Part shown: piece by piece, positions 2,141 to 60,976 of the stretch
How the letters are laid out: each line of letters begins with the position of its first letter
Position numbering within the stretch: the first letter of the stretch is position 1
Origin: Aurantiochytrium sp. KH105
Taxonomy: Eukaryota > Sar > Bigyra > Thraustochytrida > Thraustochytriidae
Assembly: GCA_003116975.1 (NCBI GenBank)
Contig: BGKB01000166.1
Coordinates: forward strand, 62,001-126,000
DNA length: 64,000 nucleotides
Direction of reading: 5' to 3'
Program-made: the position numbers and the translations under genes
The notes under the pieces: model-generated
Told to the model about the DNA's origin: nothing
The model's input: the letters and a program-made list of their open reading frames with translations, nothing else
The model's database searches: none

Positions 2141-3077
2141 CTACCCTGTCACGTGCAACAACAGGTCACGGACCACCGTAAAGTTGTCTTGAAGCTCCTT
2201 GCGTTCACAAGGTGTGAGAATGTGCTCTCGTTTGGGACGAATCGCCGCAAGGCAGCGCAAAATGCCCTCCGAGGTCGCACGTTGCAAAAGGTCCGCTAGA
2301 AGCTGCTCGTGACCCGACGCCTCGAGCGTGCTGACGCATTCTGAAGCCAAATGATCCACAAAACTCGCAGGCAAGCCAAAGTGCGGCACAACGCGAACGA
2401 CGGCCGCGAGCAAAAGAAGAATGTCCAAAACTTCGGAACTGCCTTTGAGACTGCGCAGCGAGCGAACATACACCATTTGCTTGAGGAGCGCGCGCGTAAA
2501 GGTCACGCCCTGCGCTGCCAGCATCGACACCGTCGCACTTTGCGAGCGGAGCTCCATAGCCACACTCTTGGCGCCCTCCCGTGCTGTCTGGCCATCCCCT
2601 TCGACCTCAAGACCGTCCATGGCACGTGCTCCATTCTCTGCCGCGTGCGCAAGCGCATGTTCCACATTGATTGGTCCCCGGTCATCAAGACGCTGGTAGG
2701 CGTCACGCTTGTACCAGGGTGCATGTGGCGTTGTCACGTAGTCCAAAGAGGCCTGCCCCATGTGCTTGAAGGACTCGTCCCAGCCGCGCGGGGGAGCACG
2801 CGTGCCCGACCGGGAAGAGTAGTCTTTGCCTTCGTAGGGAGCCCTCTCCCGTTTCCCCGAGCTGAACTCACGGTGATGACGATCGAGCCAGGCGTCGAAC
2901 TCGCTGTGCGGGATATCTTCCGTGGCCGAGGCAGCAGAGGTCATCGACGCCGCAGACGCCGTGGAGGTCGTCGACAAGGCCGAAGAGAGCGGCGCACCCG
3001 GTGCACTGCCCGTTTTGTTCGTGCCGTGGCTTCGGCTGTTGCTGCTGCTCGTGGTGTTCGTAGAATTCACCATCTGA

Positions 3078-3116
<39 letters not shown>

Positions 3117-4855
3117 ATGTGGACACGCAGGTCGGTGTCTCTGGCGCCCGGGCCAGAGCTGCCGGCCCCGGCAGACGAGGCCGTCTTGCGTGACGAAGTT
3201 GACCCAGCGCTCGAAATACTGGCATTGCTACTCGAAGAGCTCGAGGCGCTAATTTGACGAACCGCCGCAAATCCAGACCGCGCGTTGTGACCACTGGCAG
3301 CCTTCTGACCCCTGCTAGAGCTCGGAAAGTCAGGCCGCTGTGCACGCCATAGACCCATCTTGTCGTCATCTTCCTCGTTGATATCGTCATCATCGTCCAA
3401 AGCCGCATCCGCGTGCTTGGGTTCGCGCCTGCGACGCGCGTCTCCGTGCTCATATCCCCCCATGTGGCGATACTCGTCTTGCGCGTGCATGTTTCCACCT
3501 TGAGACTTGTTGTTGTTGTTGTAATTGTTGTAGTTGTAGTACAACTCTTTTGCGGCAGCCTCCCTGTCCGCCTCATGAAGCATGCCAAAAATGCTACGAA
3601 CAGTGCTGCGCAAAGGCCGGCTGCGTTCGTCTTTGACGAGGCCGGTCTGTGAGCGGTCCCGTCGCGCCGATCTCCAGCGTTTGCCGTCCCATACGAGCTC
3701 TCTCGAAGCCTTGCGACGTTTGTCGCTTGCGCCCGACGTCCCCGTCATGTCTGCTCGCCCGCGCTTACGATGCCGCGACGTCGACCCTCGCGTCGCAGTC
3801 GAAGCCACTGCATAGGAAGAGGACGACGATGATGCAGTCGTTGTTGAAGTGGCCGCCGCAGTAGCAGCAGCATGGGGAGGAGCAACAGCAGCAGCTGTGG
3901 TGGCGAGCGGCCGTGCAGACGCTGTGGCCGAAGTCGCGCCTGCGATCTCGGTGGGCTGTGGCCTCCTTTGCCGGGCGATCTTGCCGGTCTGCGCATCGGC
4001 GCCACCGTCGCTGCTGCTCGATTCGTCGCCCTCGGAAGAAGGCGTGGCCGACGAGGAGGCAAAGTCAGAGCTCTCCTGCGAGTCGGCGTCGGTGTCCAGC
4101 ACCATGGTTGAGTTCTCGTACACAAAGGCGCTCGGCCATGCGTTGACGAGGTCGGCGCTGGCGAGGCCTTGGTCGTGGCGCACGCCGGCGGTCTCGCGCG
4201 GGACCAGGCCCGCGTCCTGCAGTTCCTGGGAATAGGCCTGGCAGACGCCGAGGATCTGCTCAGCGGCCTGGCGGCGCGTGCTCACGTGGAGGCTGGGGTC
4301 CACGTAGTCGACGAGGAGCACAGGGTCGACCTGCGCGCCAAAGCACCAGCGGCCGTAGACGAACTCGCCGTTGATCCACTTGCGGCGCATGCGAAAGACG
4401 AGATGGATGCCGAGGCTGCTGCGCGCCTTGCGCAGCACGTCCGAGGCGTGGTTCGTGAACCAGTGCGGCGTCCCGGGCCTGGGAATCCACTCGGTAGGCG
4501 TGGCAGGGCAGTCCCTGCGGTAGATTTTACAAAAGTAGAAGAGGTACGCGGTGGCCAGCTCGCTGCGCAGCGTGCAGCACAGCGAGGTGCTCGCGTTAAG
4601 GGCCGTGGCCGAGGAGTCGAGCGTGACGAATTCCGAGCTCAGGAACGCGAGCAGCGGGTGCGAGCGCAGCATTTCGGACTCGTCCTCGTCGTCGATCTCC
4701 ATGTCGTCGTCCTCCATGCGCTCGTTGCTCGACGACGACCCGTCCCCGTTCATCCCATTGTTGTTGTTGTTATTGTCGACGCGGTCGTCGCCCTCGTCGC
4801 TGTCCTCGTTCGCGTCGTGGGCGTCGCCGCCCCGGACCTCCTCCTCCTGCATCAT
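2141..4855 (-). CDS. Low-complexity protein of unknown function
   Basis: A 904-residue frame on the minus strand that I do not recognise. It has a disordered acidic and Asn/Ser-rich N-terminus (residues 1-60), then an ordered block (about 65-220) rich in aromatic residues, including WIPRPGTPHWF and GRWCFGAQVDP. A long middle part of Ser, Ala, Thr and Asn runs follows (about 250-700), and an ordered helical C-terminus (about 770-904). The poly-Ser run is encoded by an AGC repeat at about 3081-3117. There are several basic clusters (for example RHRKRGR and DKRRK), so a nuclear location is plausible. The ordered ends argue for a real gene rather than a chance frame. The first two codons are both ATG. 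The gene is convergent with the hydrolase. Confidence 0.75.
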
Positions 4856-21304: not shown

Positions 21305-24256
21305 ATGCCGGTCGGCGTCGTTGTCGTGGACGCCACGGGCGAACTGGCGTTCAAGAACACCTTCCCGGCGCTCTTCAGGCTCTTTTGCACCGAGACCGTG
21401 CGCGAGATGACGGTCATCTGCGTCGCAGAGGAGGATCTCAACGATGCATCCTTTCGAAAGTCCCTGCTCCCCCGCCTCGGCGCAGGAGATCTCGACGGCT
21501 TCCTCGACAAGTGTCATTTTATTCAGGGAGACTGCCTCAAGGCCGAAGTCGCAGACGTCGTGGCGAAGCGCCTCGAGGGCCACTCTCGCGTCCTCGTCTA
21601 CCTCAACCCGCTGCTTGATATTGCCGAGACTGACCCGGAGCCTCTCGCCAACAAGCTTCGCGTGCAGTGCAAAAAGGCCGGTGGCTGGCTGCGCTGCGTC
21701 GTCGAGAGGCCCCTCCATTACGATGGGCGCTCTGCCAAAGATCTTACTCGCAAGCTACAAAAGGCCTTTGATGGCGAGGAAAACATCTTTCGCCTCGACC
21801 ATTTCGTTGGCAAGGAAATGGTGCAGAACATCGTCGCAGTCCGCTTCGCCAACCGCTTCCTCGAACCATCCTGGAACTCGAGCAACGTCAACGCAGTCGT
21901 GATCAGCTGCCGCGAGAGCATCCTCGTGCCCTCTGGCGAGCTCGCCTCTGTCTTTGACGACTACGGCATCATTCGCGACCTTATCATTGACCATCTCATG
22001 CACATCATGGCGCTCGTCGCCATGGAAACCCCTGTAGATCTCACTGATGGCAAGAGCGTCAGCGACGAGGTTGCCAAGGTTCTCCGCTGCGTCGAGCCCG
22101 CCAAGCTCGAGGACACTGTGCTTGGCCAGTACCGCGGCTACACCGACACCGAGGGCGTCAACGCCGATTCCACGACGCCCACCTTTGCGCTCTGCGTGCT
22201 GTACATCAACAACCCTCGCTGGCACGGCGTTCCTTTCATCCTCAAGGCAGGAAAGGGCATGTACGAACGTCGCACCGATGTGCGCGTCCAATTTAAGCCG
22301 CCACACAACAAGCTCTTCCCGGCGCACCGTGGCGGCGGCCCGCTCAACGAGCTGGTCATCCGCATTCAGCCCAACAGCGATATTTACATGAAGATGATGC
22401 GCAAGGTGCCCGGCCTCAAGCTCAATGTTGCGGTCACCAAGCTCGACCTCCTCGGAAACGACCCCTCTACGCTGCTCGACAGCATCAATCGTCCTGCCAT
22501 GCAGCACGTCACCAGTCAGACGAACCTCAACAAGATGGCCTCGCGCTTTGAATCACCCATTGCGCAGAGTCTCGCCGCGGATGTTGATGGTAAGCCGCGC
22601 AAAAACTCTGCGCTCGCCGAGTACCCGCTCCTCAACGCCTATACGCCAGACTCGTACGAGCGTCTCATCTACGATGTCATCAGCAACGACCGTTCCTCAT
22701 TCTCCCGCGACGATGAAGTTGACGCCATTTGGAACATCTTCGACCCCCTTCTCCGCGATATCGAAGGCGACGACGACCTTGAAGGTGTCGAGGTCCATCG
22801 CTACGTTGTGGGCAGCCGCGGACCCTCGGCAGCGTACAATCTCATGGCAAGCGCTGGTTTCGTAGGCTACAAACTCGAGTCCGAACTCCTCGGCTTCAAG
22901 CCTCGCTCGGTCTTTTCCGACCTCACGTCTCAGTTCAGCCTCACTGGATCCCAAATGGAGGAAATCGCCACTCACTTCTTCATGGAAATGCGTCGTGGTC
23001 TTCAGGGTATCGAGAGCTCGATCCGCATGCTGCCCAGCTATGTGACGGAGATCCCCACAAGCCGCGAAAAGGGCGTCTATTACGCGCTTGATCTGGGTGG
23101 TACCAACTTTCGCGTCTCGCGCTTCACCTTTGACGGCATGGGCTCCGCCTCCATTACGGATGAGCGGAAATACACCGTGCCTGATAGCAAGATGACCGGC
23201 ACGGCCGAAGAGCTCTTTGACTTTCTGGCCGAGTGTGTTGCATCGCTCGATACGTCCGCCGATGACGCTAGCACTGGCGGCCGCTTCTATGGCTTTACGT
23301 TTTCCTTCCCTACGCAGCAGACCGCCATCGATCGCGGCACGCTCATCAGCTGGACCAAGGGCTTTAACACCACGGGTGTCGTCGACCACGATGTTGTAGA
23401 ACTCCTTCGCGACGCCTTCAAGCGCCGCGGCTTCGAGGGCGACATCACTGCCCTCGTCAACGATACGGTCGGTACCCTCATTAGCGCCGCTTACACGGAC
23501 CCACGCACGCACATTGGCGTCATTCTCGGCACAGGCACCAACGCCGCCTACCGTGAAAAGGTCGAGAACATCCTCAAGCTGCCCAAGGAGATCCGCGACC
23601 GCGGTGGCGAGATGATCATCAACACAGAGTGGGGTAACTTTGGATCGAATGGTAAAATGCTCCCAAGCACGGATGTCGACCGTGAAATCGACGACAACTC
23701 GCGCAACAAGGGCCAGCAGCTCTTGGAAAAGATGATCTCGGGCATGTATTTGGGTGAGATGGTTCGCCTTTGCCTCGTGCGCATGTATGATTCGGGCGAG
23801 ATTTGGTCAGAGCCTGGTGTCGAGGTTAAAGCCGACCTTCGCAAGCCCAACTCCTTCCTCAGTCGCTACCTTTCGGATATCGAGTACGACATGTCCGAGC
23901 AGCTGCACATTGTCCACCGTGTCGAGAAAACCTTTGGCGTCGAGGGTTCCACGCTCGAGGATCGCATCAAGCTCAAGGAGATTTGCGGTATGATTATTCA
24001 GCGCGCCGCAAACCTCACGGCCTGCGCAATTGCCGCCAGCATCCGCCAAATTGGTTCGCAGGACTCGGACCTCGTTGTCGGTATTGATGGTTCCGTCTTT
24101 GAACATCATCCATCCTTTCGTCAGCGTCTTTCGGCCGGTTTGGGCGAACTTGCCGTGCAGTGCAACGTCATCCTTGCGAAGGACGGCTCTGGCCAAGGCG
24201 CAGCATTGATTTCCCATGGCGCGCTTATTGCTCGCGAGAAGCTCACCTCCAAATAA
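21305..24256 (+). CDS. Glucose-6-phosphate dehydrogenase-like / hexokinase fusion protein
   Basis: One uninterrupted frame of 983 residues. Residues 1-530 are a G6PD domain: RLDHFVGKE (163-171; catalytic His166), GIIRDLIIDH (Asp225, His230), AGKGMYERRTDVRVQF, and the C-terminal PLLNAYTPDSYERLIYDV and YVVGSRGPSAA. Residues about 540-983 are a complete hexokinase: DLGGTNFR (596-603), the sugar-binding signature FTFSFPTQQ to SWTKGF (about 662-686), NDTVGT with catalytic Asp720, and the adenosine site GSVFEHHPSF (about 929-938). Fusion would place two consecutive steps (glucose to G6P to phosphogluconolactone) in one protein. However, the G6PD nucleotide fingerprint GASGDLA reads DATGELA, the Arg that binds the NADP 2'-phosphate (human Arg72) aligns with Glu42, and EKPFG reads ERPLH. 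The G6PD half may therefore use NAD or be regulatory. No targeting peptide is seen. The stop lies in AATAAA. Confidence 0.93.
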   Translation: MPVGVVVVDATGELAFKNTFPALFRLFCTETVREMTVICVAEEDLNDASFRKSLLPRLGAGDLDGFLDKCHFIQGDCLKAEVADVVAKRLEGHSRVLVYLNPLLDIAETDPEPLANKLRVQCKKAGGWLRCVVERPLHYDGRSAKDLTRKLQKAFDGEENIFRLDHFVGKEMVQNIVAVRFANRFLEPSWNSSNVNAVVISCRESILVPSGELASVFDDYGIIRDLIIDHLMHIMALVAMETPVDLTDGKSVSDEVAKVLRCVEPAKLEDTVLGQYRGYTDTEGVNADSTTPTFALCVLYINNPRWHGVPFILKAGKGMYERRTDVRVQFKPPHNKLFPAHRGGGPLNELVIRIQPNSDIYMKMMRKVPGLKLNVAVTKLDLLGNDPSTLLDSINRPAMQHVTSQTNLNKMASRFESPIAQSLAADVDGKPRKNSALAEYPLLNAYTPDSYERLIYDVISNDRSSFSRDDEVDAIWNIFDPLLRDIEGDDDLEGVEVHRYVVGSRGPSAAYNLMASAGFVGYKLESELLGFKPRSVFSDLTSQFSLTGSQMEEIATHFFMEMRRGLQGIESSIRMLPSYVTEIPTSREKGVYYALDLGGTNFRVSRFTFDGMGSASITDERKYTVPDSKMTGTAEELFDFLAECVASLDTSADDASTGGRFYGFTFSFPTQQTAIDRGTLISWTKGFNTTGVVDHDVVELLRDAFKRRGFEGDITALVNDTVGTLISAAYTDPRTHIGVILGTGTNAAYREKVENILKLPKEIRDRGGEMIINTEWGNFGSNGKMLPSTDVDREIDDNSRNKGQQLLEKMISGMYLGEMVRLCLVRMYDSGEIWSEPGVEVKADLRKPNSFLSRYLSDIEYDMSEQLHIVHRVEKTFGVEGSTLEDRIKLKEICGMIIQRAANLTACAIAASIRQIGSQDSDLVVGIDGSVFEHHPSFRQRLSAGLGELAVQCNVILAKDGSGQGAALISHGALIAREKLTSK

Positions 24257-24257: not shown

Positions 24258-24832
24258 ACTTATTTTCTTTTATATGCACCCCCGCTCCCCGACTTTCTGT
24301 TTGCGAGGCCGACCAAAAGATGGAGGCCTAGGCCCTTCTGTGTCTGTTGCGCAATGGCATTGAAAAATGTAGACGAGCGATCTCTTGAAGGCCTCCCAAG
24401 GTCCCTGATCACCAAGCTATTGTTGAAACTCTTCGATTCGTAATCCGTGAGTTGAACGATAGCTTGGTCATTCGAGCAATCGAGTTGTTGCTTGGCATTC
24501 TTTGGTGTCCACGACTCCCGGTGAAAGCGGTGACGACCAAAACCAAAAATAAAAAATCTTCTTTATTTGATTTGATTTGATGGCAAGACAAACAGACAGA
24601 CAAACCACCAAACTGCAAAGCCAACGCGCCTCGCTCCACGTGCCGCGTCGTCGGTCGAGTGCACGCGCGCACCAGGGAGAGGGAGACACAAGTCTCTACG
24701 TTGATTCTCCTCGTCCGCTAGAGACCTCTTCCTTTCCCTCTCCGCGCCGGGCGTCGTGAGCAGCAGCAAGCAGCCAGCATCTTTTGCAGCAACCAGCCTC
24801 GCGCGCGGCAGGTGGGAGACCGATCGTTCAGG
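24257..24832. other. Intergenic region before UBA2
   Basis: About 575 bases between two plus-strand genes, with no coding signal. It contains short TGATT repeats (about 24565-24580) and ACAGACA repeats (about 24588-24605). The second half presumably carries the UBA2 promoter. Confidence 0.5.
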
Positions 24833-27016
24833 ATGACGGCCCGATATGCGCACCTCGAACGAAGCCTCGGCGCTGACTTGTTTGCCCAGGTGCGATCATG
24901 CAAGGTGCTCGTCGTTGGATCGGGCGGCATTGGCGTCGAGATTCTGAAAAATCTCGTCATGTCCGGGTTTGGAGATATTGAGATCGTTGACCTGGACACC
25001 ATTGACGTCTCGAACCTGAATCGCCAGTTTCTCTTTCGCAGCAAGCACGTGGGCATGTCAAAGAGTGAGGTAGCACGCGAGGTCGCACTTCAATTCAACC
25101 CTGACGCCAAAATCGTCGCTCATCATGGTAACGTCAAAGAGGAGCGCTTTGGTGTCCAGTTCATCTCCAAGTTTGACATTGTGCTCAATGCTCTTGATAA
25201 TGTCGGCGCCCGGCAGCACGTGAATCGTCTTTGTCTAGCTGCCAAGAAACCCCTCATCGACGCCGGCACCCAAGGCTACTTGGGACAGACCAACATTCAC
25301 GTGGGTCGTGAAACGGCCTGCTTCGACTGCGAACCCAAGACGGAGAACAAGCGCACTTTTGCCATTTGCACCATTCGTAGCACGCCCGACAAGCCAGTGC
25401 ATTGCATCGTCTGGGCCAAAGAGCTCTTCAAGCTCATGTTTGGCAATGCCGAGGAATCCATGCTCAGCGGCACGGAGCCTGACGAGGACATTGCCGATGC
25501 AAACAAGGAAGAGTCCGCTGATCCCGACGCAAATGCTACGAATGCGGATGCGCCATCATCTGCCGAGATCAAAGAGGACCAAAACAAGGAAAAGGAAATT
25601 CGTTCACAAATTGTCGAGGCCGTCGCCTCCCGCCCATCAGGCGACGAGCTTGACAAGGACGAGACGGTACGCGCGTACGCACGGCGCGTCTTTGACGCCG
25701 TCTTTGACCATGAGATTCGCTTCAAGTTGCAACTTCGCAATGGATACAAGGGCGCAAACAAGCGGCCAACTCCTCTCACCTTTGAAGAAGCATCATCCAA
25801 GGCTGACGAGGACGCCAGCGGCCAGCAGGCTGGCGGTCTCAAGGACCAACGCATCATGAGTCTCAAGGAGTGCACGGATATGTTCGTCGATAGCGTCGTC
25901 ACCTTGCTTGGGCCAGAGCGCCGTGGGTCGCTTGGTGACATGGTCTTTGACAAGGATGATGCGCTCACGTTGCGATTTGTGACGGCGGCATCCAACTTGC
26001 GCTGCCATTGCTTCAACATTGAGCGCAAGAGCCTTTGGGATACCAAGGGCATCGCAGGTAACATTATCCACGCCATCGCCACAACCAACGCTATCGTGGC
26101 GGGCCTCCAGACCCTCGAAGCCATCAAGATCCTCGCTGCGCTCAAGCGCGTCCCCGTCGCGAATGCAACCTGGCGCGCTCCGAGTGCGTCCGCGGAGGAC
26201 ACGGACGCCGCGAGCCCGGCGCTCACCGCAAACAGTACCGCCGTTTGGGTCGCGCGCGAGCCTGTGGGTCGCGGCTACCTGCTGCAGGCAACGGGCCTTC
26301 CCCCGCCCAACCCCAAGTGCTTTTCCTGTGGCAACGCTCTGGTCACGTTGTCAGTAGACACGAGCAAGTTCACCTTTGGCGACCTCATTGACCGCGTGCT
26401 CAAGGGTCGTCTCGGCGTCAACTTGCCAAGCATCATGCTCGACGCTTCGGAATTATATGCCGAGGGCGATGGTCTCGACGAGGACGAGGTGGAGTTTTTC
26501 GAAGCAAACAAGCCTAAAGCTCTCGCGGACTGCCCGGCCGGAGGCATCAAGGAGGGCACCATTGTTGATGTCGAAGACTTTTCACAGGATATGAAGTTCA
26601 AGGTGCTTGTTCATCAAAAAGTCTATGATGCCGAGGAAAACCCGGACTTATTCGAGGTTGGCGGCGAGGAGCCCGTCGCCAAGCCAGATGCCAAAGAAGA
26701 CAGTGAAGAAAAGGCTTCTGCCGACAAGGCCGAGTCCTCCTCCGATGCGCCCGTGCAGACGCAAGAAGTTGAAGCCATCATGTCCACCGGCAAAGATGGA
26801 GAGGAGCTGGTGGCCGTGGCTAGTACGGTCGTGAGCTCATCAAAGCGCCCAAGGGAGGACGGCGAGAAAGATCATGAATCAGAGGGCTCAAAGCGTTCCA
26901 AAACAGATGACGAAGGTGCTGCCGCTGTCGTCGTATCCGAGATTAATCTGGCTGGCGGCGCCAAGGCTTCTGGCGACGATGACGGCGATGATGATGACGT
27001 CATTTGCATCGACTGA
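24833..27016 (+). CDS. UBA2: SUMO-activating enzyme subunit 2 (E1 catalytic subunit)
   Basis: A 727-residue UBA2/SAE2. With SAE1 it adenylates SUMO and transfers it through a cysteine thioester to UBC9. Seen in order: the ThiF-type adenylation fold with VVGSGGIGVEILKNL and DLDTIDVSNLNRQFLF; Zn-binding CxxC pairs in CFDCEPKT and CFSCGNAL; the catalytic cysteine box FAICTIRSTPDKP (Cys179); VHCIVWAKELF; and a ubiquitin-like domain (about 480-600). An acidic and Ser-rich tail follows with basic clusters SSKRPRE and SKRSK (likely nuclear signals). The tail ends in DDDVICID, a hydrophobic core flanked by Asp that looks like a SUMO-interacting motif. The true start is the ATG at 24833; the seven codons upstream have only a GTG. 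Its last 145 bases overlap the minus-strand gene ending at 26872. Confidence 0.96.
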   Translation: MTARYAHLERSLGADLFAQVRSCKVLVVGSGGIGVEILKNLVMSGFGDIEIVDLDTIDVSNLNRQFLFRSKHVGMSKSEVAREVALQFNPDAKIVAHHGNVKEERFGVQFISKFDIVLNALDNVGARQHVNRLCLAAKKPLIDAGTQGYLGQTNIHVGRETACFDCEPKTENKRTFAICTIRSTPDKPVHCIVWAKELFKLMFGNAEESMLSGTEPDEDIADANKEESADPDANATNADAPSSAEIKEDQNKEKEIRSQIVEAVASRPSGDELDKDETVRAYARRVFDAVFDHEIRFKLQLRNGYKGANKRPTPLTFEEASSKADEDASGQQAGGLKDQRIMSLKECTDMFVDSVVTLLGPERRGSLGDMVFDKDDALTLRFVTAASNLRCHCFNIERKSLWDTKGIAGNIIHAIATTNAIVAGLQTLEAIKILAALKRVPVANATWRAPSASAEDTDAASPALTANSTAVWVAREPVGRGYLLQATGLPPPNPKCFSCGNALVTLSVDTSKFTFGDLIDRVLKGRLGVNLPSIMLDASELYAEGDGLDEDEVEFFEANKPKALADCPAGGIKEGTIVDVEDFSQDMKFKVLVHQKVYDAEENPDLFEVGGEEPVAKPDAKEDSEEKASADKAESSSDAPVQTQEVEAIMSTGKDGEELVAVASTVVSSSKRPREDGEKDHESEGSKRSKTDDEGAAAVVVSEINLAGGAKASGDDDGDDDDVICID

Positions 27017-29523
27017 TGATCTTTAGGCCTGTGCGCACTCTTTTTCGACTCCTCCTCTTCACCCCCCTTGCTAGCGATATTTGCATCGAGTCTATTCTCG
27101 TCACTTTTTTCCCCAAGGGACGCGACTCCACGCATTCTATAGTTATCACCATTTTCATGTTGCGCTTGTTGACCATGAATCCCTTGTGGCCCAGCCTGTT
27201 GGCCTTGCACTGGTCGAGCACCACCGCTTATCCCAGCGCTGGCGCGCAATTTTTCAAGCTGCGAATGTGCCATTTGAGAGCGCAAAACAGCCACTTGCTC
27301 CTCGAGCGCCTCAATGTGCGACTGCATGGCTGCCTCTTTGCGACGACTTCGCTTCTTGCGTTTGCCCCGACGTGCAGCTCGCGGTGATCCGAGGGTTGGT
27401 GCAACTGACACGCTGAGACTTGCAGGCCCCGCAGGCGAGCCACGGCCCGAAAGGGCTGAAGGGGACGCGAGTCGCAACGATTGCGTTGGGCTTTCTTGTT
27501 GTGACCCGGGCACCGTCGCCACCGCTACATGTGTTGATTCGTGGTTTTGATACTGCTCTTGCGCTGCTTTGAGGAGCTTGTGTAGACGAGGTAAGCGGTG
27601 AGGCGGGCAGGTAAGAGCCGTGCGCAACAACGGACTTTCCTGTGCATGCAGACGCGCTTCCGCTTCGCGAACGAGACGCTCCGTGTCCCGCTTTACATTG
27701 TCCTCGAAAACATCGAGCTGCGCCACACGATTGGAAGCCTTGATAGCGAGCGCTTCCGCTTGAGCCGCACTCTTGCTTGCATACGCAACCCACCATTTGG
27801 ACGCCTGTGCGTCAGCGTCTTCATCTTCGCCATCGTGTGCCTTGGCCGAACTCAAGGAGCTTGTATCGACCCGCCAGGGAGCCTTGCCCATCTTGACAGT
27901 CCGTATGTCTCGCTCCTCGTGGCCGACTTGCACGCGCCACCACTCTTTGCCCACTTGGGCATTTTCCAGTGCAGTGGCATGTGCATTGCGTGCCGCTTCA
28001 AGCACGACTCGATCGCGCGAAAGAGGCCAACGCGGCTGCGCCGCCGCCGGTGACTGCGTCTCTTCTGCATCTCGAGGATGCGCGGCCCCAATTTCGTCGG
28101 ACGCTGCAAGCAGCGCTGTCTCTTGCTTTTCGGAGACACTCGGGTCAGGATAGGATGCGAGAGGAACCTGAAGACTCTCGAGCCGAAGGCAGAGTTTGTC
28201 GCTTCGACGCAAGAGACGTTCCCTGGATTCTTCGTGTTCCCGCATTTCCTCGTCTTGTATTTGAAAGCTTGCCCACTGGGTTTGCAACTCTCGGTAGCCT
28301 TCCATGAGTGCTTGGAATTTCTCGTGGGTTGAAAAGCGTCCGCCATTCACCATCCGATCGTGGGCCTCCCGAGACAGATCGTCAAAGAGCTGGTGCAGAC
28401 GCCTCGAATCCTCGTCTGTGGTGGAAACGTATGTGCTGCCGTCTGTGCCGTCTTGCTTTGATCTTCTCTTAATCGCTTGCTTTGCACGACCATTTTTCCC
28501 CGTCGCGTCCTCTTCAGCAGGGTCTCGACCATCACCTTTTGTAGCATTGTTTTCCCCAACGCCAATATTGTCGTCATTCTCGACCTCATCCTCGTCCTCA
28601 TCTTCTTCGCCATCGTTGTCCTCCTCCTCCTCCTCGTCGTCGTCGTATTCGTCTCCCTCAGCGATCAAATCATCCAGTGCAAGGTCATCGGCACGTTTAC
28701 GAGTCACATGTGTCTCGGTTCGGGGTTTAGTATGCCGACGAGAGGATTTCCAGGATCGTTGAATAATGCGTGCAGCGCGCTGGGCACGGCGTTCTTCCCA
28801 TGCAAGAAGTTTTTCGGGCCGTAGCTGTCGCATCATTGCGAGCTCGAGCTGACGACGTTGGATCCGTTCGCGGCGCGCAAGCCTTTCCCTCTCGGCTTGC
28901 TGTCCCGCCTGCTGCTTCATCACGAGTCGTACCTGGAGGCCTTGGGATGGGTCTCCAACCTCGTACCAGCGTTGCGCCTGATCCTCACTGCCAGCCTTCA
29001 TGTCGATGCGAACGCTCCCAGCACCTGCCACGCGTATCCTGATTTCTTGACGTGCACTTTGCGTTCGTGCATTGTCACCCGCGCCGGGCGAGGCCGCGAG
29101 CGTGGCATCGGGAGTTTCGCACCAAGGTACGTGGGTCTCGAGTCTCCACCGAATGTCGCCTACGGGCTCACGCACGGGGTCTATGGCGTCAAAATTTTCC
29201 CTCGGCTTGGACCCTCCAAATCCCACGTCCCTGCTGGCATCCTTGCCCACGCGCACGACGCTCACGCGTATCCTCGGCGGCTGCGCGGGCGCGAACCCGC
29301 GGCCCAGGACGCCCACCACCCTCCATTCCATCCTCCTCCGGCCCCCTTTTCGCTCTGCAAGCGAGCCTCGCGCGGGCCGGCCAGCTCCCGAGTCTGCGCC
29401 CGGGTCTCCGCGCCAAGGCGTTCTCCCGCGCCCCTTCTCCGCGCCCTTTCCTGCGCCCGCGCTCGACGCGCTCGCCCGGTCGCGCTCCGCATGAACGTTA
29501 TGCCCGCCCCGCACGAACTCCAT
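26872..29523 (-). CDS. IQ-motif coiled-coil protein of unknown function
   Basis: An 883-residue frame that I do not recognise as a named family. The N-terminus (about 65-205) could be a beta-sandwich domain (MEWRVVGVLGRGF, IRIRVAGAGSVRIDM). A helical segment with one IQ motif (RAARIIQRSWKSSRR, about 255-270) suggests calmodulin binding. It is followed by a very acidic linker (poly Glu/Asp, about 300-345), long coiled coils (about 385-660) with paired WWRVQVGHEE and WWVAYASKS blocks, a basic patch RRGKRKKRSRRKEA, and a disordered tail. This architecture is common in flagellar or centrosomal proteins, but that is inference. The ATG at 29523 is the longest start. The ATG at 29331 begins exactly at the ordered part and may be the real one. 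It is divergent from the gamma-tubulin complex gene. Confidence 0.72.
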   Translation of the reverse strand: MEFVRGGHNVHAERDRASASSAGAGKGAEKGRGRTPWRGDPGADSGAGRPARGSLAERKGGRRRMEWRVVGVLGRGFAPAQPPRIRVSVVRVGKDASRDVGFGGSKPRENFDAIDPVREPVGDIRWRLETHVPWCETPDATLAASPGAGDNARTQSARQEIRIRVAGAGSVRIDMKAGSEDQAQRWYEVGDPSQGLQVRLVMKQQAGQQAERERLARRERIQRRQLELAMMRQLRPEKLLAWEERRAQRAARIIQRSWKSSRRHTKPRTETHVTRKRADDLALDDLIAEGDEYDDDEEEEEDNDGEEDEDEDEVENDDNIGVGENNATKGDGRDPAEEDATGKNGRAKQAIKRRSKQDGTDGSTYVSTTDEDSRRLHQLFDDLSREAHDRMVNGGRFSTHEKFQALMEGYRELQTQWASFQIQDEEMREHEESRERLLRRSDKLCLRLESLQVPLASYPDPSVSEKQETALLAASDEIGAAHPRDAEETQSPAAAQPRWPLSRDRVVLEAARNAHATALENAQVGKEWWRVQVGHEERDIRTVKMGKAPWRVDTSSLSSAKAHDGEDEDADAQASKWWVAYASKSAAQAEALAIKASNRVAQLDVFEDNVKRDTERLVREAEARLHAQESPLLRTALTCPPHRLPRLHKLLKAAQEQYQNHESTHVAVATVPGSQQESPTQSLRLASPSALSGRGSPAGPASLSVSVAPTLGSPRAARRGKRKKRSRRKEAAMQSHIEALEEQVAVLRSQMAHSQLEKLRASAGISGGARPVQGQQAGPQGIHGQQAQHENGDNYRMRGVASLGEKSDENRLDANIASKGGEEEESKKSAHRPKDHQSMQMTSSSSPSSSPEALAPPARLISDTTTAAAPSSSVLERFEPSDS

Positions 29524-57979: not shown

Positions 57980-58218
57980 CGACGAGTGCGCAGTCTTCGA
58001 TCTAACAACATCGGCGACGAGGGCGGCAAGGCGCTGGGCGAGGCGCTCAAGCAGAACAAGACGCTGCAGACGCTTGAGTAAGTGACAGTGACTGAGGCTG
58101 GCAAGGAAGGCAGGCAGGCGAAAGCAAAGTGGCTGACGAACACGCACGCACGCACGCACGGCTTGTCTTTTGTTGTCTTGACCTGGCTTGGCTCGCTCGC
58201 TTGCTTGCTTTCTCTTTT

Positions 58219-58277
<59 letters not shown>

Positions 58278-60976
58278 CTCTTTCTCGACGAATTTTCAGT
58301 CTGGATGACAACAATATCAACGAAAGTATCCTCAAGAAGATTAACGCTGCGCTCGCACGAAACAAGGCAAATACACCTCAGCGCCACGACGATGCGTGGC
58401 TGGAGGCAATCAAGGCAGCGATCGAAGAGGGTGACGAACATGCTTGGGGTCGCGCTAAACTCATGGTGGTAGGGCGTGGCGCAGCTGGCAAAACGTCTAC
58501 GGTGCGCTCGCTGTTGGGCCAAACTCCTGTAATGGAGCACAATTCGACCGAGGTTGCCGATCTTCTCCTCACCAATGCCCAGCATTGGCAGCCACTGTCT
58601 TCAAGCCATGGCGAATTTGACGCGCAAGCTCGCTACGCAGCTCTGCGTCGTCTTCAGGATGCTCCAGCGCGCGAGAGTCTTAAGCGCAAGTCTCTAGGCC
58701 GGCGTGTGTCAGAAGATCTGCGTCGCCTTCAGAATGCTCCAGAGCGCGAGAGTCTTAAGCGCAAGTCTCTGGGCCGGCGTGTGTCAGAGGCAGCGCAGAG
58801 CCTTTTTTCTGCTGCCACGGGAGGCCGTCTGTCTGCCTCCAAGTCTCCTGTTCGGCTCGAAGCCGCTGCCGCCACAGCTCCCGCGATCCCCGAATCGCCT
58901 TCTCCAAAAGCGCTAGTTGACGAGGAGGAGCTGACGCGAAAATTTGCCCTTCGTAACGAAGACCAGGCGGTGCTGCAAGGTGCCGCTCAGGCTGAGGCGC
59001 GTGACGTGAGCTTTACGATCTGGGACTATGGTGGGCAAAAGGTATTCTACGCGCTGCATCACATCTTTCTCACAGACAAGGGCCTGTATCTGGTCGTCTT
59101 TGATATGCGCGAGATTGTTGGCAAGGAGCACTTCCGCGACACGTTGACTTTGAAGGAGTATCAAAAGCTGTCGACTCAGTCTGAAGCAATCGAATTTCTC
59201 CGGTTCTGGCTCCACAGTATCAGGCTGCATGCGCCCGAGGCGCCAGTGCTCATGATCGGCACTTTCCTCGATCAGGTCACTCAGCTCCGTGAGGTGAATC
59301 GCGTGCTTCGCGAACAAGTCAGTGCGACTTCGCTAAAGCACCTCGTGAAGCCTCCCAAGAGGGGTCATCTCTTTTTCGCGATCGACAACAGCAGCATTGA
59401 CGAAAACCGCGCAGTAGAATTGCGCACTGCAATTGCAAGTGTAGCTTCCGAGCAGCGCTACGTGCGCGAGCAGGTCCCACTCGCCTGGCTGAAACTCCAT
59501 GAAGACATGCTTCAGAGCGGCGAACCCTTTATGCCTTATGACGAGGTGGTTGAGCGCGCGGCCGAGTATGGCCGACCTCGTGCCGATGTGGATGCCATGC
59601 TCGAGTACTTTCACGGCCTCGGTGTCGTTGTTCACTTGCGTGGGTCGCAAACTCTGGAGCGCGTTGTGGTGATTGACGCTGAGTGGCTGCTGAAGAAGCT
59701 TGCTCGCGTTATTGCAGACGACCTTCATGCGCAAAGCTTGTTTTCTGATCCCGACCTCGAGAGTGCCGGGCTCTTACCCGCATACGAGCGTTTGCGAAGA
59801 GACATGATTGCGACGCGCTCGCTTCTGGAGTGGCTGTGGGCCGACCAGGAGGTGGATTATCTGTTGCAGTTCATGGAAGCCAATATGCTCTTGTGTCCGT
59901 GGCGCTTCGACAAGAATTGTGACGAGAACGAGTTTCTCGTCTCAGGCTTGCTGTCGGACTCGATTCAGCAGGTCAAAACGAGAAGATTCAAGCGTGGCTT
60001 GACGTGCGAGCTCGATTTCTCTTCATTTTTCCTGCCGAATGGTGTCTTTCACCGACTCGTTGCCCAATGTGCCACCTATGCGACGCAACCAGATGCTGCT
60101 ACATCACGCAGCTTGGCTCCAAGACCCCCCAAGCTCGATGCGCAAACGGCCAAGGTTTTTTTTGGTCGCGATTCCTTTCTCATGGAGGTGCGTGGCGATG
60201 CGGTCCAGATCACCGTAAGTGCCACTGCGAAAAGGCCGGCACGTGTCATCAAGTTGCTGGTTTCCATGTTCCGCGAGCAAGCCGAGACCGTCTTTTGCGG
60301 ACTTGAGTGGCGGCTGTTGCTTCATAGCCCAACGACGGGTGCTCGTGTGTCATACCATGAGCTGACAAGTGCGCGCGACAATGGGTCGGAAGAGCTCTGG
60401 GCCGTTGATGAGGAAGATGACGTGGCCGATGTCGCAGACTTTGATCTTTTTTTCGTGGAGCAAATTGGCGCCCTTGATACGGACGAGGACGGTACAGATG
60501 TTGCTCGTGTGCCTGACGTTCCGTCCCTTGGTCCGAACGAAGACACGCACGTGTTTTTGAGCCACGTGCAGTCGACGGGCGGCGACCTGGCCGACGTTCT
60601 ACGTTTGAAACTCGAGAATCGCGGCCTCAACGTTTGGTTTGATCAGGGCTATCGCGCCAATCTCAACCAGCAGGCCATGCTAGACGGCGTGCGCCGTACA
60701 CATACATATGTGTTGGTGTTGACCAAGGGGATTTTCGCGAGCAGCGCTGTCCTCGAGGAGCTCCGATGCGCGCGCGATTCTAAAAAACATATAGTTGTGG
60801 TTCATGAGGCTGACACACATCGCGCGAGCTACGCGAGCTTTGGCGAGTACATTGCATCAACACCTGATTTCTGCGACGGTTTCTTTCTCGAGGAGGAGTC
60901 ACTGCCTGTGCGACGCAAGTGGTACGAGGAGGAAGCCTTTTACAACGAGCTGGTGCGCCGATGTTTTGAACAATAA
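57731..60976 (+). CDS. LRR-ROC-COR-TIR (ROCO-family) protein
   Basis: Three exons (57731-57783, 57994-58077, 58300-60976) encode about 937 residues. Donors are GTACGT and GTAAGT, acceptors are GCAG and TCAG, and all junctions are phase 2. Joining gives TELYLRSNNIGDEGGKALG and LQTLDLDDNNINES, two ribonuclease-inhibitor-type leucine-rich repeats; exon 2 (84 bases) is exactly one 28-residue repeat. The ROC GTPase has GRGAAGKT (about 104-111), WDYGGQ (about 287-292) and IGTFLDQ. A duplicated 25-residue insert lies inside it (about 160-208). The COR domain spans about 360-640. A TIR domain follows from about 792: THVFLSHVQSTGG, GLNVWFDQG, YVLVLTKGIFASSAVLEEL, IVVVHEAD. TIR domains signal by self-association or cleave NAD; a Glu in the AVLEEL helix could be catalytic. 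The combination suggests a receptor or switch in stress or immunity, by inference only. Confidence 0.88.
57881..57993 (+). repeat. Intron 1 3' part, first copy of a duplicated intron segment
   Basis: It contains CGCACGCACGG, a unique core of about 57 bases (about 57889-57945) and a (TTTC)n tract, ending CGACGAGTGCGCAG. The core differs from the matching part of intron 2 at about one base. The TTTC array acts as the polypyrimidine tract. Upstream, 57835-57880 is a GCACGCTC/GCACGCAC repeat. Confidence 0.85.
58151..58299 (+). repeat. Intron 2 3' part, second copy of the duplicated intron segment
   Basis: It has the same CGCACGCACGG start and the same core (GTTGTCTTGACCTGGCTTGG and CTCGCTCGCTTGCTTGC), with a longer (TTTC)n tract and ending CGACGAATTTTCAG. 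The 5' parts of the two introns differ. Offset from the first copy is about 270 bases. Confidence 0.85.

Follow-up and report, generated by a model that had tools for sequence, protein, structure and literature searches.

A gene whose predicted product joins a glucose-6-phosphate dehydrogenase (G6PD)-like part to a hexokinase was found on contig C166, within the 64,000-nucleotide stretch of DNA that was analysed as a whole (the window). The gene occupies positions 21305..24256 and reads, from ATG to TAA, as 983 amino acids plus a stop codon, with 0 internal stops; the coordinates of its parts are those of the window, and all of them lie on the + strand. Profile searches with Pfam placed four domains in the order G6PD_N, G6PD_C, Hexokinase_1 and Hexokinase_2, all far over the curated cut-offs, and revealed no other domain at E-values up to 0.1; domains of 6-phosphogluconolactonase (6PGL) and 6-phosphogluconate dehydrogenase (6PGD) were absent. 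A preliminary description of this DNA had claimed a stop-free 983-codon frame with a G6PD-like domain followed by a complete hexokinase, and the open reading frame, the Pfam domains and the matches to PDB structures confirm it.

The G6PD-like part is full length: G6PDs in the PDB were matched from residue 6 to ca. residue 519, with the match interrupted by an insertion. It opens with a degenerate coenzyme-binding Rossmann domain, G6PD_N (residues 6-175, 21320..21829; Pfam E-value 1.3e-25), whose match spans profile positions 1 to 183 of 183. The better of two G6PD_C stretches comes next (residues 178-383, 21836..22453; Pfam E-value 9.2e-77). The insertion, of ca. 60 residues compared with human and canonical G6PDs, covers ca. 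residues 384-443 (22454..22633) in both the alignments and the structural model; it starts just past D381, the equivalent of D421 of the human enzyme, and most of it was modelled with a predicted local distance difference test score (pLDDT) under 50. The second G6PD_C stretch, ca. residues 444-520 (22634..22864), was delimited by the profile, whose match there covers ca. residues 444-518, and by alignment to PDB G6PDs. An AlphaFold2 model of residues 1-540 had a mean pLDDT of 79.0 and a predicted template modelling score (pTM) of 0.80, with residues 390-448 and the last 17 residues under 50. When this model was compared with the PDB, all 50 matches listed were G6PDs, including human G6PD with bound glucose 6-phosphate (G6P).

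The hexokinase part (22919..24211) consists of Hexokinase_1, residues 539-730, and Hexokinase_2, residues 737-969 (PF00349 and PF03727; Pfam E-values 1.4e-64 and 4e-73; scores of 218 and 246.2 bits versus cut-offs of 24.3 and 24). Only one stretch of each was found by Pfam, and the hexokinase is therefore not a duplicated one. The motifs LDLGGTN, SWTKGF, VNDTVGT, NTEWG, MYLGE and GSGQGAA were all present, as seen from motif positions and from alignment with human HK1. We take D720 in VNDTVGT to be the catalytic base, and the sugar-binding and phosphate-loop roles of the motifs are assumed in the same way. The C-terminal part thus appears to be an active-looking hexokinase. It is separated from the G6PD-like part by a short linker, ca. 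residues 521-538 (22865..22918), which was placed from the Pfam boundaries and the PDB G6PD alignment and is under about 20 residues long; the junction had been put near 22900, a position that falls within the linker.

When 76.0 Mb of genome sequence in 367 contigs were searched, the fusion protein was found in two places, C166 and C12, each time as a 1014-codon open frame. Since the two loci matched at 95.6% over 5,981 alignment columns, flanks included, and the other genes inspected in the genome likewise occurred as pairs, we read the two copies as haplotypes. Their coding regions differed in 42 codons, 36 synonymously and six non-synonymously. Across the junction (codons 500-570), five differences were found, all five synonymous, with 0 amino-acid changes. 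Because the same frame is present in the second haplotype, and because the differences at the junction are synonymous only, an assembly join at this point is very unlikely, which largely answers a concern raised together with the preliminary description. An intron in the insertion was also considered and is disfavoured, for the two haplotype differences there fall on third codon positions and are synonymous, and the frame is open.

Estimates of selection were made from this one haplotype pair. The Rossmann domain (residues 1-175) contained five synonymous and two non-synonymous differences (rate ratio 0.127), and residues 176-530 contained 15 and one, respectively (0.021). For the whole G6PD part the counts were 20 and three (ratio of rates 0.047), and for the hexokinase part, residues 531-983, they were 16 and three (0.059). 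Since the ratios are low in both parts, the G6PD-like domain appears to be maintained rather than decaying. We conclude that, by these estimates, the gene encodes one protein with purifying selection acting on both its G6PD-like and its hexokinase parts.

Coenzyme and substrate sites of the G6PD-like part

To score the sites, we used residues for which passages of PMC11448927 and PMC8973466 describe a link with G6P or the catalytic coenzyme. Four further positions (K47, P144, Y147 and E239) were added by us from recall or conservation. The alignment comprised human G6PD, whose numbering is used for the sites, three paralogues of this genome (among them the canonical and the endoplasmic reticulum (ER)-type G6PDs described below), and 80 bacterial G6PDs. 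The bacterial sequences were kept from at least 547 confirmed G6PDs obtained in a scan of genome contigs; Paenibacillus and its relatives are heavily represented, and a cut at 80% identity leaves 19 sequences, so the set does not amount to 80 independent samples. More weight was placed on positions that are invariant across the comparison set.

The fusion kept five of the 12 coenzyme positions, compared with nine (one sequence), 10 (77 sequences) or 11 (two sequences) in the bacteria, 11 in the canonical paralogue and eight in the ER paralogue. Substrate and catalytic positions were kept at nine of 10 in the fusion, eight to 10 in the bacteria, and nine in both the canonical and the ER paralogue. 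When counting was limited to residues that the passages mention by name, four of eight coenzyme residues (bacteria seven or eight, canonical paralogue eight, ER paralogue six) and eight of nine substrate residues were kept in the fusion. Two alignments disagreed on the residue found at positions 143, 144, 147 and 423, and gave the same division into kept and lost positions.

The dinucleotide fingerprint, which is defined, together with the role of the EKPxG motif, in a passage of PMC11448927, reads DATGELA in the fusion (residues 9-15, 21329..21349) versus GASGDLA in the canonical paralogue (G38D, D42E). The GxxGDL pattern is thus broken (DATGEL); among the bacteria, Gly stands at its first position in 80 of 80 sequences and Asp at its fifth in 78 of 80. 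Human R72, which contacts the coenzyme 2'-phosphate according to passages of PMC11448927 and PMC8973466, is replaced by E42 (21428..21430). The sequence ERPLH (residues 134-138, 21704..21718) replaces the EKPxG motif. The lysine of this motif, K171, contacts both ligands and is found in all 80 bacteria; the fusion has Arg instead (K171R). Further losses at the coenzyme site were K47N and the region of P143, P144 and Y147, where the fusion has no aromatic residue at 147, a position occupied by F in all 80 bacteria. G38, K47, R72, P144, K171 and Y202 are each represented by one letter in all 80 bacteria, human G6PD and the canonical G6PD, and all six are changed in the fusion.

Residues kept in the fusion are D200, H201, K205, E239, D258, H263, K360, R365 and Q395, the last six of them within the first G6PD_C stretch. 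The segment RLDHFVGKE (residues 163-171, 21791..21817), which carries G6P-phosphate and catalytic residues, retains the equivalents of D200, H201 and K205 and has the change Y202F. The catalytic dyad D200-H263 and the phosphate-binding H201 and K205 are accordingly present as D165, H230, H166 and K170. At the structural NADP+ site, six of 10 residues are identical and three more are K/R swaps; since this site is partly kept, some NADP+ binding there is possible. The tail that contains human Y503 and W509 lies past the end of the alignment. As far as can be judged from the aligned residues, the G6PD-like domain has lost coenzyme residues and retained substrate residues.

Other genes for the same steps and markers of the host

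The genome profile search covered six frames with introns disregarded and scored only first-look candidates, so that it could overlook a gene split into many short exons. PF00349 and PF03727 each matched only the two fusion copies in the genome contigs at E-values up to 10, and a PF02685 glucokinase was not found in them at E-values up to 1. The G6PD_C profile matched three genes: the fusion, a canonical G6PD of 527 amino acids (C38 and C63), and an ER-type G6PD of 521 amino acids (C31 and C14). Of the separate genes that the preliminary description had asked about, those for G6PD thus exist, while a second PF00349/PF03727 hexokinase was not found.

The ER-type G6PD (L006:1048-2613, G000:C31, paired with C14) has a hydrophobic N-terminus and a C-terminal RDEL, and its best PDB match was the ER enzyme H6PD (8em2); a lactonase domain was not detected in it by Pfam. 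Its presence here is noteworthy, since a passage of PMC3148214 traces the H6PD duplication to the ancestor of choanoflagellates and animals. On the zwf equivalog model TIGR00871 (NCBIfam, cut-off of 400.6 bits), the canonical paralogue passed with 547.3 bits; the fusion and the ER paralogue scored below the cut-off, with 349.2 and 237 bits, respectively. Because the ER paralogue fails as well, this cut-off alone says nothing on activity. A ROK-family sugar kinase of 418 amino acids with a hydrophobic N-terminal stretch was also found (L027:1231-2487, G000:C79, paired with C91). Since its best PDB match was a ROK glucokinase, it is possibly a second glucose kinase of the genome.

With a PfaD-type enoyl-reductase model, two long frames, each in two copies, scored over the cut-off and six more matches fell under it. 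The frame of 2075 amino acids has ketoacyl-synthase domains ahead of the reductase region, and the frame of 1830 amino acids has two FabA-like stretches ahead of it. We take this to be the layout of subunits B and C of the thraustochytrid polyunsaturated fatty acid (PUFA) synthase, and these genes suggest a thraustochytrid. A single-frame TPI-GAPDH fusion, of a kind known from several stramenopiles according to a passage of PMC6198282, was not seen among the four TPI matches on C219, C270, C26 and C1 (L111-L114), which lie in frames of 263-293 amino acids and appear to represent two genes, each present twice. Its absence neither confirms nor excludes a stramenopile, and the stramenopile host presumed earlier is plausible on the strength of the thraustochytrid-type PUFA-synthase subunits.

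Elsewhere in the window, a SUMO/ubiquitin-activating E1-like gene (ThiF, UAE_UbL) follows the fusion downstream, also on the + strand (24812-27016). A frame at 58082-60976 (+) corresponds to a ROCO-like protein in which a TIR domain comes after Roc and COR-A and forms the end. Two open frames of 883 and 904 amino acids on the opposite strand (26872-29523 and 2141-4855, both -) had no Pfam match at E-values up to 0.001 and may be mirror frames or unknown genes.

Possible functions of the fused domain

The pattern of lost and kept residues is best explained by a pseudo-dehydrogenase that acts as a G6P-sensing regulatory module on the hexokinase; we give this reading about an even chance of being correct. 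The G6PD-like domain would bind G6P, the product of the attached hexokinase, the signal would pass via the short linker to the kinase, and the outcome would be feedback control of glucose phosphorylation. Sensing of G6P would be the simplest use of such a domain, since its G6P pocket is kept, its coenzyme site is lost, selection is acting on it, and there is a canonical G6PD elsewhere in the genome, by which the dehydrogenase reaction can presumably be carried. We infer from these data a loss of dehydrogenase activity, binding of G6P, and an inhibitory direction of the allosteric effect. The fusion protein is probably cytosolic, since it has no extension ahead of the first Rossmann strand. The preliminary description had suggested channelling or regulation at the entry to glycolysis and the pentose phosphate pathway. 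Channelling of G6P into the latter pathway by the fusion's own dehydrogenase would be at odds with the replacement of several coenzyme-binding residues, and simple bifunctional channelling is disfavoured by these losses; regulation at the entry to glycolysis is the better half of the idea.

Several observations weigh against G6P sensing. The contrast between coenzyme and substrate positions gave p = 0.031 in a Fisher test with the full site list, K171 left out, and p = 0.131 when limited to residues that the passages mention by name, so the outcome hinges on the choice of sites. The ER paralogue, which is presumed to be active, is also without D42, K47 and R72 (D42N, K47Y, R72T), and loss of some coenzyme letters therefore need not abolish activity. 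The changes that are specific to the fusion compared with this paralogue are G38D, K171R and the 143-147 region; the ER enzyme has retained the glycines of the fingerprint, the EKPFG sequence and both prolines of the pair. Identity of the fusion to the canonical paralogue was 0.28 in the Rossmann domain and 0.43 in the rest, versus 0.42 and 0.59 between the canonical and human enzymes; measured against the latter pair, which shows the normal difference between domains, the Rossmann domain of the fusion has not diverged to any special extent. A broader count took every alignment column with at least 95% conservation among the bacteria and an identical residue in the canonical G6PD: of 39 such columns in the Rossmann region, 21 are retained by the fusion and 22 by the ER paralogue, so that their losses there are about equal, and of 85 further on, 65 and 37 are retained, respectively. 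Affinity for G6P may be altered, since K171 and Y202 are changed. In a model of the full-length protein, most of the hexokinase part was of low confidence, and contact between the two parts was not resolved. The pattern of coenzyme loss and substrate retention is, moreover, known from the sequence of one genome.

Among other explanations, the one that survives best, though we consider it unlikely, is that the inactive G6PD fold serves as a docking subunit, joining the canonical G6PD in mixed oligomers and thereby placing the hexokinase beside an active dehydrogenase to which G6P is handed on. The complete fold, the partly kept structural NADP+ residues (identities and K/R swaps as given above) and the presence of a canonical G6PD would fit such a role. 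However, the tail with human Y503 and W509 is beyond the alignment, and a kept G6P pocket would presumably be unneeded for pure docking. It is more doubtful that the domain acts independently of any ligand, just keeping the kinase stable or in place or taking part in glucose signalling: purifying selection shows merely that the domain matters, but retention of nine of the 10 scored G6P-site residues would then lack an explanation.

An active bifunctional enzyme with altered coenzyme use, to which G6P is channelled from the hexokinase, appears less probable again. NAD-specific folds typically have an acidic residue where the second Rossmann strand ends, and the acid at the place of R72 could suit NAD+ over NADP+. 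The His-Asp dyad and the substrate residues are kept, and the ER paralogue likewise dispenses with R72 and K47. Yet in the fusion Asp replaces the first glycine of the fingerprint, Arg replaces K171 of EKPxG, and the P143/P144/Y147 region has been lost, whereas the ER paralogue has all three features intact. Finally, an artefact is scarcely credible, whether through misassembly or because the locus yields two separate proteins: the two haplotypes, each on its own contig, share the frame, the differences at the junction are synonymous only and the linker is short.

Sensing of G6P by the fused domain could also be part of a two-signal enzyme, an elaboration that we regard as speculative and rather improbable. 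The inactivated G6PD domain would read G6P through its old substrate pocket and NADP+ through the partly kept structural site, so that glucose phosphorylation by the lineage's only classical hexokinase would be set by the product level and by NADPH demand in a cell that produces much reduced lipid. If so, evolution would have converted a catalytic domain from the next pathway into a sensor for the preceding step.

Comparison with known systems

Known G6PD fusions have 6PGL as a partner (H6PD, apicomplexa, Giardia/Trichomonas) or, in Phaeodactylum, 6PGD, according to passages of PMC3148214. In the same passages, no G6PD-homologue fusions were apparent in the remaining species analysed, no hexokinase partner is named, hexokinase is mentioned once, as the preceding enzyme, and the word stem 'labyrinth' is absent. 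The present fusion resembles the 6PGL and 6PGD fusions in that a G6PD fold shares one frame with a neighbouring sugar-phosphate enzyme; it differs in that its partner is the upstream enzyme, hexokinase, and that its G6PD part is without the coenzyme residues. Hexokinase had been described earlier as an unfamiliar partner of G6PD, and no report of such a fusion was found in the open-licence literature, mostly judged by title and the start of the abstract. The hexokinase and G6PD passages of the thraustochytrid papers PMC9866257, PMC7565746, PMC6142690 and PMC10215387 do not mention it, the word fusion itself not having been a search term. A pattern search for relatives in viral contigs gave no match. 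Domain databases may already list a G6PD-hexokinase architecture in thraustochytrid proteomes.

With cytosolic eukaryotic G6PDs (human, Kluyveromyces lactis, trypanosomatids) the fusion shares the fold, most G6P-site residues, the His-Asp dyad and part of the structural NADP+ site. Unlike them, it has broken GxxGDL and EKPxG motifs, Glu in place of R72, the ca. 60-residue insertion and an attached hexokinase. All of the sugar, ATP and catalytic motifs sought are shared with 50-kDa eukaryotic hexokinases (plant, yeast, glucokinase), in contrast to which the fusion carries an N-terminal G6PD-like domain of ca. 520 residues. What appears to be new is the kind of domain added to the hexokinase, which has no precedent among the families compared. 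If the organism is a thraustochytrid, the protein stands at the start of the route from glucose to NADPH and docosahexaenoic acid that industry tries to engineer, and a transcript or database match carrying the label 'G6PD' could be this hexokinase.

A close parallel is provided by mammalian hexokinases I-III, in which one half has a regulatory role. Like the fusion, these are proteins of ca. 100 kDa with a C-terminal hexokinase behind another domain (PDB 1hkb, 1cza and 2nzt, among others). They are sensitive to G6P and arose by duplication and fusion, as stated in a passage of PMC4169440. Both of their halves are hexokinases, whereas the N-terminal half of the present protein has a G6PD fold and its G6P sensitivity is putative. 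Hexokinase is the entry gate for glucose. If the G6PD-like domain does sense G6P, then the branch-point enzyme just downstream, stripped of its coenzyme site, has been attached to this gate, and product sensing would have evolved separately, by a logic comparable to that of the duplicated mammalian hexokinases.

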